Below are positions 7,344-21,605 of a DNA stretch of 37,703 bases, piece after piece. The translations under genes and the position numbers were made by a program. Where the stretch lies: positions 1 through 37,703 of the forward strand of contig SLLG01000287.1 in the NCBI GenBank assembly GCA_007134215.1, written 5' to 3'. The notes beneath the pieces were generated by a model. It was not told the origin of the DNA and did no database searches. It saw nothing but the letters and a program-made list of their open reading frames with translations. Position 1 is the first letter of the stretch; each line of letters begins with the position of its first letter. Source of the DNA: Opitutales bacterium. GTDB taxonomy: Bacteria > Verrucomicrobiota > Verrucomicrobiia > Opitutales > Oceanipulchritudinaceae.

Positions 7344-7640
7344 CTTTATGAGACTTACGCGCCAAACCATGCCGCGAAAACACGCCGACCTCAAGTCCGT
7401 GCGCACCCCGCCGCCCGAAAACACGCCGCGCGATGCCGGACAGTGGACCAGAAAAACGAGCTTGAAGATCTGCGAAAGGACGGCGCGGTGGCAACGGTTT
7501 TTCCACCGGAGCGGGCGGGTCCCGTAGTCTCCCGCGGGAAGCCCAGGAAGGCGCGACCGGGGCTGAACGCGCCGGTCCGGCCCGGCATTCGCCGCCCCCG
7601 GCGCTTGCATTCCGCGTGGGTCCGCGCATGGTGTCACTCC

Positions 7641-15161: not shown

Positions 15162-16166
15162 ATGGGCGAAATTCGTATCAAAACAGACGGACCGGGAGTG
15201 TATCACATCACTTCCCGTGTGATTCAGAAGCGGCGGCTTCTCGCGGAAGGACAACGGGAGGTATGGGTCGGCGCGCTACACCGCGCGGCGGAGTTCAGCG
15301 GCGTCGAGGTCATCACCTACTGCGTCCTTGAGACGCACTTCCACATCCTTGTGCGCATCGATCCTGCGGCGCGCAACTGCGACGACGCGACGCTGGTGCG
15401 CCGCTACCGGGCGCTGTATGGCGACACGAGGGCACAATGGAGCGGTCTCAATGCCGACGAGCTGGCCCACACGCTGGCCACGGGTTCACCCGAAGCAGCT
15501 GAACATTTGCGCGACCGGCTCCGCCGCCGCATGGGCGATGTCTCTGAGTTTATGCGCACCCTGCGGCAGCGCTACACACGGTGGTTCAACCGGGCGCACG
15601 AAACGGCGGGCACCCTGTGGGCCGAGCGCTTCGGCAGTGTCCTGGTGCAGGACACACCATGGCTTGTCGGTCTGATCGCCGCCTATATCGACCTGAACGC
15701 CGTGCGCGCCGGCCTCGCCGACCTTCCCGAAAACTACCGCTGGTGCGGTTACACGGAGGCTCTCGCCGGGCATGAGGCTCTTCAGTCGATGATCGCCCGC
15801 TGCTTCCCGCACACAAAGGACACGACCGAGGCACTCGCCCACTACCGTCTCCTCATGCTCGGAAAGGGCGCGGCCGCAAGGGGCGACGGCACCGGCGCAC
15901 GGATCGACCCCGAGCGCTTGCTCGAAGCCCTGGAAAACGGCGGCGAATTGCAGCCGCACGAGTTGCTCCGTCTCCGCGTCCGGTATTTTTCCGAGGGACG
16001 GGCGCTCGGGTCGCGCGACTGGATGGAATCCGGAGAAGGTGCCCGCTGCCTTGAACGATTGAAATGCCCGCCTTCCCACAAACCCATTGAAGTCATGGAC
16101 AACGCCGACCTCGCCGTCGCACGGACTCGATCCAGATACCGCGCCATCGAGGATCCGCGCACGTGA
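15162..16166 (+). CDS. REP-associated tyrosine transposase (RAYT), Y1/IS200-like
   Basis: This is a 334-aa protein. The Y1 transposase domain has the HUH motif at H59-F-H61 (ETHFHILVRID) and the catalytic tyrosine most probably at Y138 (LRQRYTRWFNRAH), followed by GTLWAERFGSVLVQD and AAYIDLNAVRAGL, the RAYT signature. The C-terminal extension of about 130 residues is unlike IS200 and typical of single-copy domesticated RAYTs. The family cuts and rejoins single-stranded DNA at REP palindromes. There is no terminal inverted repeat or target duplication, and no second orf such as tnpB. It starts at 15162 in an AT-rich gap shared with the pilus operon. Confidence 0.9.
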   Translation: MGEIRIKTDGPGVYHITSRVIQKRRLLAEGQREVWVGALHRAAEFSGVEVITYCVLETHFHILVRIDPAARNCDDATLVRRYRALYGDTRAQWSGLNADELAHTLATGSPEAAEHLRDRLRRRMGDVSEFMRTLRQRYTRWFNRAHETAGTLWAERFGSVLVQDTPWLVGLIAAYIDLNAVRAGLADLPENYRWCGYTEALAGHEALQSMIARCFPHTKDTTEALAHYRLLMLGKGAAARGDGTGARIDPERLLEALENGGELQPHELLRLRVRYFSEGRALGSRDWMESGEGARCLERLKCPPSHKPIEVMDNADLAVARTRSRYRAIEDPRT

Positions 16167-18211: not shown

Positions 18212-18523
18212 TCACACCTCGTCCCACGCCTCGTCGCAAAGTCCGTCCACATCACCGGATGCGAGCCGCTCCCAGAGATGGAGCGCGTCGGTCTTGTCGA
18301 CGCCCAAACGGATTCGGGCGGGCTGGTTCCCATCTTCAAGGTTTTCCAGCACCGCCGTCCCGCCCGCCGTGACCGTGATCGACCAACCGCTCTCGTGCAC
18401 CAGCGCGGCATCAGGGTGGTCGGCGTCATCCGCATGATCCAGCAAATCGAGCACCCGCCGCATCCGGGCGATATCCGGCTCGATATGAGTCACACCGTAG
18501 GGATCGGTGGTGTGGTAGCGCAT
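18212..18523 (-). CDS. Small conserved-looking protein of unknown function
   Basis: This is a protein of about 103 aa starting MRYHTTDPYGVTHIEPDIARM. It is acidic (many Asp: DLLDHADDADHPDA, ASGDVDGLCDEAWDEV). A beta-strand-rich middle (ALVHESGWSITVTAGGTAVLEN) and a C-terminal helix (KTDALHLWERLASGD) suggest a compact alpha/beta fold. I do not recognise the family. The open frame extends to 18580, but the first 19 codons look non-coding. It is followed 45 bp later by the EamA gene on the same strand, so the two may be co-transcribed. Two palindromes lie upstream of it (18611-18664). Confidence 0.6.
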   Translation of the reverse strand: MRYHTTDPYGVTHIEPDIARMRRVLDLLDHADDADHPDAALVHESGWSITVTAGGTAVLENLEDGNQPARIRLGVDKTDALHLWERLASGDVDGLCDEAWDEV

Positions 18524-18610
18524 GCGCCCAGTCCATGGCGATTCCACGCCCGTGCGCGACACAAATCGAGACCAACCCACCCCCGGCAGCCCTGCCGAAT
18601 GTCAACACCT

Positions 18611-18847: not shown

Positions 18848-20395
18848 TCAGACGCGGAGGTCGAGTTGCTGGATGCGCTTGCGGAGAGTGGCACGGGTCA
18901 TGCCGAGGAGGGCGCTGGTCTTGACTTGGTTGCCTCCGGTTTCAGCAAGCGCACGGACGATCATCTCTTTCTCGATGGCTTGCAAGAGGCCTTCGTCGAC
19001 GTCACCACGCAGGCGTTCGTAGAGGTGGTCGAAGGCGTCTTCAAGGGTGGGTGCCGGGGGAGCGGCTCCGATAACGGGAGGGACGGTCGCGGGAGTTCCG
19101 GCTCCGATTTGGGCGGTATCCCCGCCAGCAGTCTGGTTCTCCGGCGGCTCCGCGGAAGTCCCGGCACCTTCGGCGGCCGGCGGACTTTCCGGCGCGGCGG
19201 CGGCGCAGGCGGCGATTTCGCGGGGGAGGTCTTTGGTGAGGACGGTGTCTCCTTTGGCGACGACGGCGCTGCGCTGGACGACATTCTCGAGTTCACGGAC
19301 ATTTCCCGGCCAGTTGTAGGCGGTGAGGGCGCGCATGGCGTCGTCGGACACCCGGCGGACACCGACACCGCGCTCTTTGCCGAGGCGCTGGAGCATGAAA
19401 TCGACGAGGGCGGGCACGTCCTCACGCCGCTCGCGCAGGCCCGGCATACGTATGCGCATGACGTTGAGGCGGTAGTAGAGGTCCTCGCGGAACTGCTTTT
19501 CCTCGACCATCTTTTCGAGGTCCTTGTTGGTCGCCGCGATGAGGCGGACGTCGACCTTGATCGTCTCGTTGCCGCCGACACGCTGGATCTCGCCCTCCTG
19601 GAGAGCGCGGAGGATTTTCGTCTGCGTGGGCAGGGCCATATCGCCGATTTCGTCGAGGAAGAGCGTGCCGCCGTCGCATAACTCGAACTTGCCCGTCCGC
19701 TGCTGGGTGGCTCCGGTGAAGGAGCCCTTTTCGTGTCCGAACAGCTCGGACTCGATGAGGTTCTCCGGGATGGCGGCGCAATTGACGGCCACGAAATGCC
19801 GGTTGGCGCGGTGGCTGTGCCGGTAGATGCATCGGGCGACGAGTTCCTTGCCGGTACCGCTCTCGCCCGTGATCATGACCGTGACATCGCTCGCGGCAAC
19901 CTGTCCGATGATCTTGAAGACCTCCTGCATGGGCTCGGAGTTGCCGACGATGCCCTCTTTGTAGTCGTCGCTGTTGAGGATGGGGCTGTAGCGGGCCTGC
20001 CGCGCGCTCGCGAGGTCGTCGTGCGCCTTGATCGCCTTGGTGACGAGGGAGAGAACCTTCTTGATGTCGAAGGGCTTGATGATGTAATCAAACGCCCCGA
20101 ACTTCATCGCCTCGATGGCCGTCTGCGTGGTGCCGAAAGCGGTCATGAGGATAACCATCGAGTGCGGGCTGGCGGAGCGCAGGTGCTGGAGCGTCTCGAT
20201 TCCGGTGATCCCCTGCATGCGGTTGTCGAGGAAGACAATGGGCGGCTGCGATTTCTCGGCGCGTTCGATGCCTTCTTCGCCGCTCGACGCGCTCTCAACC
20301 TGATAGCCGTTGGCTCCGAGGACCCGCTCGAGGGAGTAGCGGATCTCGGAATCGTCGTCGATGACGAGAATGGACGTTTTCGGTTCGGCGCTCAT
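18848..20395 (-). CDS. Sigma-54-dependent response regulator (NtrC/AtoC/ZraR type)
   Basis: This is a protein of about 515 aa starting [15 protein letters not shown]. The receiver domain (8-125) has acidic D13-D15, phospho-acceptor D57 ([10 protein letters not shown]), T (ILMTAFG) and K (YIIKPF). The AAA+ domain follows: [15 protein letters not shown], Walker [24 protein letters not shown] (GSFTGA in place of GAFTGA at the sigma-54 contact loop), Walker [23 protein letters not shown], and [14 protein letters not shown] linker of about 80 residues rich in Ala, Pro and Glu precedes a Fis-type HTH ([29 protein letters not shown]). No kinase gene is adjacent. It is divergent from the site-2 protease. 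The frame is open upstream of 20395, but the ATG there begins the domain properly. Confidence 0.93.
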
Positions 20396-20401
20396 GTTTG
20401 T

Positions 20402-20442
20402 GCGAATAAAAGGATGGCGCCTTGCCGGGCGCGAATAAAAGG
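20402..20442. promoter_or_regulatory. Perfect 12-nt direct repeat in a divergent promoter region
   Basis: GCGAATAAAAGG occurs at 20402-20413 and again at 20431-20442, 29 bp apart, inside the 61-bp gap between the response-regulator and site-2 protease starts. It is AT-rich within GC-rich flanks. It may bind a shared regulator or provide promoter elements for both genes; which one is inference. The second copy runs into the GAAGG ribosome site of the protease gene. Confidence 0.5.
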
Positions 20443-20456
20443 GCGAAGGTATTTTC

Positions 20457-21605
20457 ATGGGCCGCGCATGGTCAATTCCCTTGTTCCGCGTCTTCGGCAT
20501 CCGTCTGGAGATGCACATTACGTTCATCCTCATCCTTGCCTACGCGGCGTGGATGGGCAGCGGCCACGATGGAGCGCGCGGAGCGGCGTGGAGCGTACTG
20601 CTTGTGGCCCTGCTCTTCGTCTGCGTGGTGCTCCACGAACTTGGCCACAGTCTCACGGCGCGTCTTTACGGGATTCCGACGCACCGCATCCTCCTGCTGC
20701 CCATCGGCGGCATGGCGCAACTGGCGGAAATGCCCCGCGAGCCGTGGCGCGAGTTTTTCATCACGGCGGCGGGACCGGCGGTCAACGTGGTCATCGTGCT
20801 CCTGATCGGTGTGCCGCTGTGGACGGCGGGCCTCGTTCCGACCACGGAGCAGGAGGTGCTCGCCGTATTCCAGGACTACACGCCCCTCGCCCTCGCGCTC
20901 ACGCTGCTCGTCTACAACGTGATCATGGCAGGCTTCAACCTCATCCCGGTCTTCCCCATGGACGGGGGCCGAATCTTCCGCTCGCTCCTCGCCATGCGCC
21001 TCTCATACCTGCACGCAACGCGGGTGGCGGCGTGGGTAGCGAAACCGCTTGCGGCGGCGGGGGCGCTCTACGCGCTGCTCGGTCCGGGGCATATCCTCCT
21101 CGCGCTGCTTTTCGCCTTCATCTACATCGCGGGCGATATGGAGTACCGCATGGTGGAGCGTCAGGAACGGTTCCGCGATCAAGTCATCGGCGACCTGACG
21201 GCGCGTTTTGTGCGGACGGTGCCCGGGCACCTCTCCATTGATGACGCCCTTTGGCTCATGCAACACGAACAGCCGCGCGAAATCGTCGTGCACAACGGCG
21301 GGGGTCCCGTGCGAATTCTCACGCCGGGCGACCTGCGCCGCGCGGCGCGGGAACGCCCCCGCTCGACGCCCTTGGAGGCCGTCGCCCCGCAACCCTCGAT
21401 CCATTTGCAGGCGGGCTGGCCCTTCGGCGTGCTGTCCAAAGAGCTGGCCCGCCGCAAAGAGGACAGATTCGCCGTCTACAACGGATCCGATTTCCTCGGT
21501 ATCCTGCGCTGCGACGATCTCGAGCGGGCGGCGGCATGGGAACGCCTGCGCGCCACACCGCCGGAGACGGAGCGCCCCCGCCGCCGCTGGATGCCTTGGG
21601 GCTGA
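20457..21605 (+). CDS. Site-2 protease family (M50) metalloprotease with CBS-like tail
   Basis: This 382-aa membrane metalloprotease has zinc motif H60-E-L-G-H64 ([17 protein letters not shown]) in a transmembrane segment, [18 protein letters not shown] and the second motif N161-L-I-P-V-F-P-M-D169-G-G, the SpoIVFB/Rip-type active site. About six hydrophobic segments lie before residue 230. The C-terminal part ([33 protein letters not shown] and the [13 protein letters not shown] stretch) looks like a pair of CBS domains. The family cleaves membrane-embedded anti-sigma factors or regulators. The start follows GAAGG by 7 nt. It shares its upstream region with the sigma-54-type response regulator, which suggests regulated intramembrane proteolysis tied to that pathway (inference). 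Confidence 0.92.

Follow-up and report, generated by a model that had tools for sequence, protein, structure and literature searches.

Many NtrC-type response regulators are orphans, so a missing neighbouring kinase does not disqualify a protein from this family. Among site-2 proteases, those that contain a CBS region and lack a PDZ domain constitute group III (PMC10202637), and the bidirectional promoters described in E. coli and Salmonella possess a common symmetric -10 element, with transcription starts usually 18 bp apart (PMC12825309, PMC10268837). Here, we analyzed a window of 37,703 nucleotides (the whole stretch of DNA under study) from a 4.4-Mb Opitutales MAG, in which a response regulator gene (RR) and a site-2 protease gene (M50) diverge from a short gap that carries a direct repeat. 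From sequence comparison, we consider it probable that the two genes of an old divergent pair share this region for their control, that the -35-like TTGACC of the RR promoter is embedded in the M50 gene, and that the repeat is a younger, genus-level addition.

The divergent gene pair

The genes and the gap between them are as follows.

18848..20395, minus strand: RR, NtrC-type sigma-54 response regulator (Pfam PF00072, PF00158, PF02954)
20396..20456, no strand: divergent gap of 61 bp between the RR and M50 starts
20443..20449, plus strand: GCGAAGG, likely M50 ribosome-binding site, judged by sequence and position only
20457..21605, plus strand: M50, site-2 protease with a C-terminal CBS region (PF02163, PF00571)

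RR contains a receiver domain with the receiver aspartate, an AAA+ domain with GSFTGA and a Fis-type HTH; as the receiver, the sigma-54 AAA+ domain and the Fis-type HTH are all present, it is an NtrC-type response regulator, a known kind. It resembles NtrC, AtoC and ZraR in domain order, receiver aspartate, GSFTGA loop and Fis-type HTH, but it does not reach the NCBIfam equivalog cut-offs shown for the named members, has no kinase on its contig and has a protease as its neighbour. M50 displays the motif HELGH and the second metal-binding motif (NxxPxxPMDGG), both invariant in the orthologue alignment (invariant columns H60, E61, H64 and D169), and its profile matches MjS2P (3b4r) and also 8vjl. 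The CBS domain PF00571 scored above the cut-off, a Pfam search of M50 for a PDZ domain gave no match, and M50 is a CBS-containing group III site-2 protease, likewise a known kind; the position of its start codon is consistent with those of its orthologues. The initial annotation had named a sigma-54-type response regulator and a site-2 protease, and these identities are confirmed by the Pfam domains and by the presence of RpoN in the genome (PF04552, E 4.6e-60). It was also correct in describing RR as having no adjacent kinase, given that none of the genome's 48 hits to the HATPase (histidine-kinase-type) domain lies on the RR contig. Elsewhere in the window, positions 15162-16166 (plus strand) encode a protein with a Y1 (IS200-like) transposase domain (PF01797), possibly of the REP-associated type, and positions 18212-18580 (minus strand), downstream of RR, contain a 122-aa ORF with no NCBIfam match.

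Comparison among the relatives shows that the pair is conserved. Within Opitutales, RR divergently adjoins M50 in 76 of 80 loci, the sample being made up of the 80 protease loci that matched best among GTDB genomes, and two of the four loci that lack a divergent RR are located at contig ends; outside the order, the divergent pair was present in 4 of the 15 class-mates sampled. This gene order, which the initial annotation had proposed to look for in related genomes, is thus old and conserved, and, as far as the compared sequences indicate, the gene pair is much older than the repeat and is conserved across the order. The genes beyond RR vary between species in the loci inspected (judged by visual inspection rather than by a search for families). 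The source genome also encodes a second M50 paralogue (L182, G000:C214:25146-26189), and no RR was found in the upstream sequence available for it, which measures roughly 250 bp.

RR is distributed more widely than M50: RR orthologues occur in 58 of 89 relatives and are common in genomes without a close M50 match, which indicates that RR can do without M50 and argues against the membrane-signal pathway of the initial annotation as an obligatory unit. We regard as improbable the broader proposal that in Verrucomicrobiia RR and this CBS site-2 protease act as a single undescribed signalling unit, in which intramembrane proteolysis would be coupled to sigma-54 activation and mutually exclusive overlapping promoters would balance the two genes.

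A probable -35-like element in protease codons

The deeply conserved control element lies at 20469-20476, within the M50 gene and outside the segment highlighted by the initial annotation. It and its candidate partner are as follows.

20469..20476, minus strand: ATTGACCA, predicted -35-like element of the RR promoter in M50 codons W-S-I, on the basis of codon constraint, gap-length dependence and the TTGACC that precedes RR in some genomes lacking the pair
20446..20451, minus strand: TACCTT, weak candidate -10-like box of RR, 18 bp from TTGACC, positioned by analogy with relatives

In nearly all loci with a short gap (up to 125 bp; longer gaps are classed as long), M50 codons 5-7, Trp-Ser-Ile, are spelled TGG TCA AT, and the RR strand accordingly reads ATTGACCA (ATTGACC). 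This Ser is encoded by TCA in 70 of 73 short-gap loci versus 1 of 13 long-gap loci, although the genomes are related and neither these counts nor the p-values are independent; elsewhere in the same genes, TCA accounts for 4.4% of Ser codons. Six short-gap loci without the motif and one 148-bp gap with it are the exceptions. Across 106 conserved columns, codon bias peaks at this Ser column (4.1 bits), with the column of the neighbouring Leu TTG ranking next (1.8), and three congeners share an identical 38-nt run at 20466-20503 while their M50 fourfold sites differ by 32-45%. The comparison thus reveals selection on the spelling of these codons. On a protease tree built without the W-S-I codons, gap class changed at least six times, and the motif tracked gap class in a mean of 3.6 of 4 supported independent pairs and almost never in the opposite direction; with only four such pairs, the tree test is not significant on its own.

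The TCA spelling could in principle arise if gene starts generally favour A/T-rich codons; among protease copies and paralogues for which no RR was found nearby, 5 of 15 do use TCA, against the background of 4.4%, and one of them has the full motif. Such a preference may explain part but not most of the TCA use: orthologues of the same gene differ sharply by gap class, as counted above, several lineages lost the motif as the gap grew, and TTGACC is also found upstream of RR genes that lack the pair. As the whole explanation, codon preference is disfavoured, and we consider it very improbable.

The comparison also ties the element to RR. In 31 regions upstream of RR in genomes without the pair, 9 contain TTGACC, where 1.0 would be expected, and 13 contain TTGAC, where 4.3 would be; three of the regions bearing one or the other carry TATGCA 16 bp downstream. 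The profile of 70 motif-bearing loci reads TTGACC-N16-TAAnnA. In long gaps the motif is lost, while several Opitutaceae with long gaps still have the M50-adjacent blocks (CTGGCG, TTTGATTA). The loss at long gaps, the TTGACC upstream of unpaired RR genes and the TTGACC-N16-TAAnnA profile together led us to assign the element to the RR promoter. The CTGGCG...TTTGATTA block just upstream of the M50 start, observed in L102, L108, L100, L098, L077 and other Opitutaceae and retained at long gaps too, is probably M50's own promoter or operator.

We propose that the RR promoter spans the short gap and extends into the M50 gene: its -35-like TTGACC would be written in M50 codons 5-7 on the opposite strand, and a weaker, AT-rich -10-like box would follow after about 16-18 bp, where it overlaps the start region of M50. 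RNA polymerase would use TTGACC, and the RR and M50 promoters would overlap and may interfere with each other. The -10-like box fits TAnnnT poorly and is ill-defined in the window: when TAnnnT was sought at 16-18 bp, the relatives showed TAAnnA at 16 bp and the window showed TACCTT at 18 bp, where it overlaps the likely M50 ribosome-binding site. A sigma-70 consensus scan of the region gave no match, and in a genome-wide TTGAC/TAnnnT profile, which relied on crude gene calls, TTGAC was not evidently a general -35 element in this group.

These features could also be read as those of an operator, in which ATTGACCA would bind a regulator, possibly RR itself, and transcription would start elsewhere. 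The poor -10-like box and the lack of a general enrichment of TTGAC upstream of genes are in keeping with this possibility, as is the near-palindrome TGGTYAAAATTGAYCA in the gap of two long-gap relatives; at most loci, however, there is no dyad around the site, and the constant distance of about 16 bp to a downstream TAAnnA or TATGCA box fits promoter geometry. We therefore consider an operator rather unlikely and continue to favour a -35-like element of the RR promoter.

Other signals around the gap were few. On neither strand was RNA folding across the gap stronger than that of shuffled sequences, inverted repeats in the orthologous gaps were weak overall (mean z 0.5), and a sigma-54 site was not evident in the window (score 6). 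Among the relatives, sigma-54 sites modestly exceeded expectation in the RR direction only, with 9 versus 1.4 expected where M50 is present and 5 versus 1.2 where it is absent, and autoregulation of RR is possible in some lineages, to judge from these sites. Sigma-54-like -24/-12 sites upstream of RR were seen at L238, L246, L249, L251, L252, L060, L091 and L026, often 12-15 nt before the start codon.

The 12-nt repeat in the gap

The repeat that first drew attention to this region comprises the following features.

20402..20413, plus strand: repeat copy 1, GCGAATAAAAGG, exact; degenerate in two congeners
20416..20432, no strand: invariant block GGCGCCTTGCCGGGCGC, identical in three congeners, containing a GCGCC/GGCGC inverted repeat
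20431..20442, plus strand: repeat copy 2, GCGAATAAAAGG, exact; 29-bp spacing kept in three congeners

Both exact copies reported in the initial annotation are indeed present in the shared 61-bp gap, 29 bp apart from start to start and separated by 17 bp. The accompanying statement that this spacing is near three helical turns does not hold: at 10.5 bp per turn, 29 bp corresponds to 2.76 turns, and the copies therefore lie on different faces of the DNA, out of helical phase. By an analytic estimate, about 1e-4 exact non-overlapping 12-mer repeats are expected per 61-bp gap. Such a repeat is unlikely for one preselected gap, and over the few thousand gaps of the genome one of this kind is not astonishing. 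The 12-mer GCGAATAAAAGG has only three copies in the 4.4-Mb genome, two of them in this gap, and the source genome (G000) and the congener G001 each contain a single instance of the paired pattern CGAATAAA-N17-25-CGAATAAA, in both cases at the RR/M50 locus. When the window was scanned for repeats of 12 nt or more lying within 60 bp, two further, unrelated 13-nt close direct repeats were found, at 822-894 and 7375-7428, with starts 60 and 41 bp apart.

The repeat's conservation stops at the genus. The congener G002 carries GCGAATTAAAGG and GCAAATAAAGGG and G001 carries ACGAATAAATTG and GCGAATAAACGA, each at a spacing of 29; a degenerate core of about CGAATAAA and the exact 29-bp spacing thus persist in both, around an invariant 17-bp GC-rich block (GGCGCCTTGCCGGGCGC) that runs from the inter-copy region into copy 2. 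The repeat was not seen in the gap of G006, a member of the same family whose protease is 62% identical, nor in the other orthologous gaps outside the genus. Conservation across homologous divergons, on which the initial annotation had staked its proposal, accordingly stands for the spacing and degenerate core within the genus and fails beyond it, and a direct-repeat operator common to the gene pair is not borne out, the repeat being kept in two congeners only. On this evidence, it would be at most a genus-level cis-element.

Whether the repeat has any function must also be weighed. That it is a functionless chance or recent duplication is a serious possibility, which we place somewhat short of even: it is not seen outside the genus, its copies have already diverged in the congeners and are out of helical phase, and the window contains two other close repeats unrelated to it. 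However, only about 1e-4 such repeats would be expected in this gap, and the 29-bp spacing and the inter-copy block were kept in three species despite differences of 22-45% at the fourfold-degenerate sites of the RR and M50 genes. The most likely role of the repeat is that of a protein-binding site or promoter element for RR, M50 or both. We suggest that it arose as a younger addition within the genus, consisting of a pair of degenerate CGAATAAA-like elements with a constant spacing of 29 bp around a constrained GC-rich block, and that it probably adds a genus-specific layer, as a candidate binding or promoter element, to the control region.

Relation to described systems

These results shift the focus from the repeat, a feature of one genus, to a gene pair that extends across an order, and they point to a promoter-like element under selection in the codons of a neighbouring gene, where synonymous spelling is free only at a long gap. 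In the literature searched, which covered few subscription papers, we found no description of such an embedded -35-like element, of an RR with a site-2 protease in Verrucomicrobia, or of an RR divergent from an intramembrane protease.

M50 shares HExxH, NxxPxxPMDGG and the CBS region with the group III site-2 proteases MjS2P and SpoIVFB but differs from that group in adjoining a sigma-54 response regulator rather than an anti-sigma factor; if the pair is a functional unit, a site-2 protease would be tied to a sigma-54 regulator instead. The bidirectional promoters of E. coli (PMC12825309) and Salmonella (PMC10268837) likewise bring the promoter elements of divergent genes together within a single short stretch, an arrangement that makes polymerase competition possible. 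The RR/M50 locus differs from them in that its conserved part is a -35-like element situated in coding sequence.
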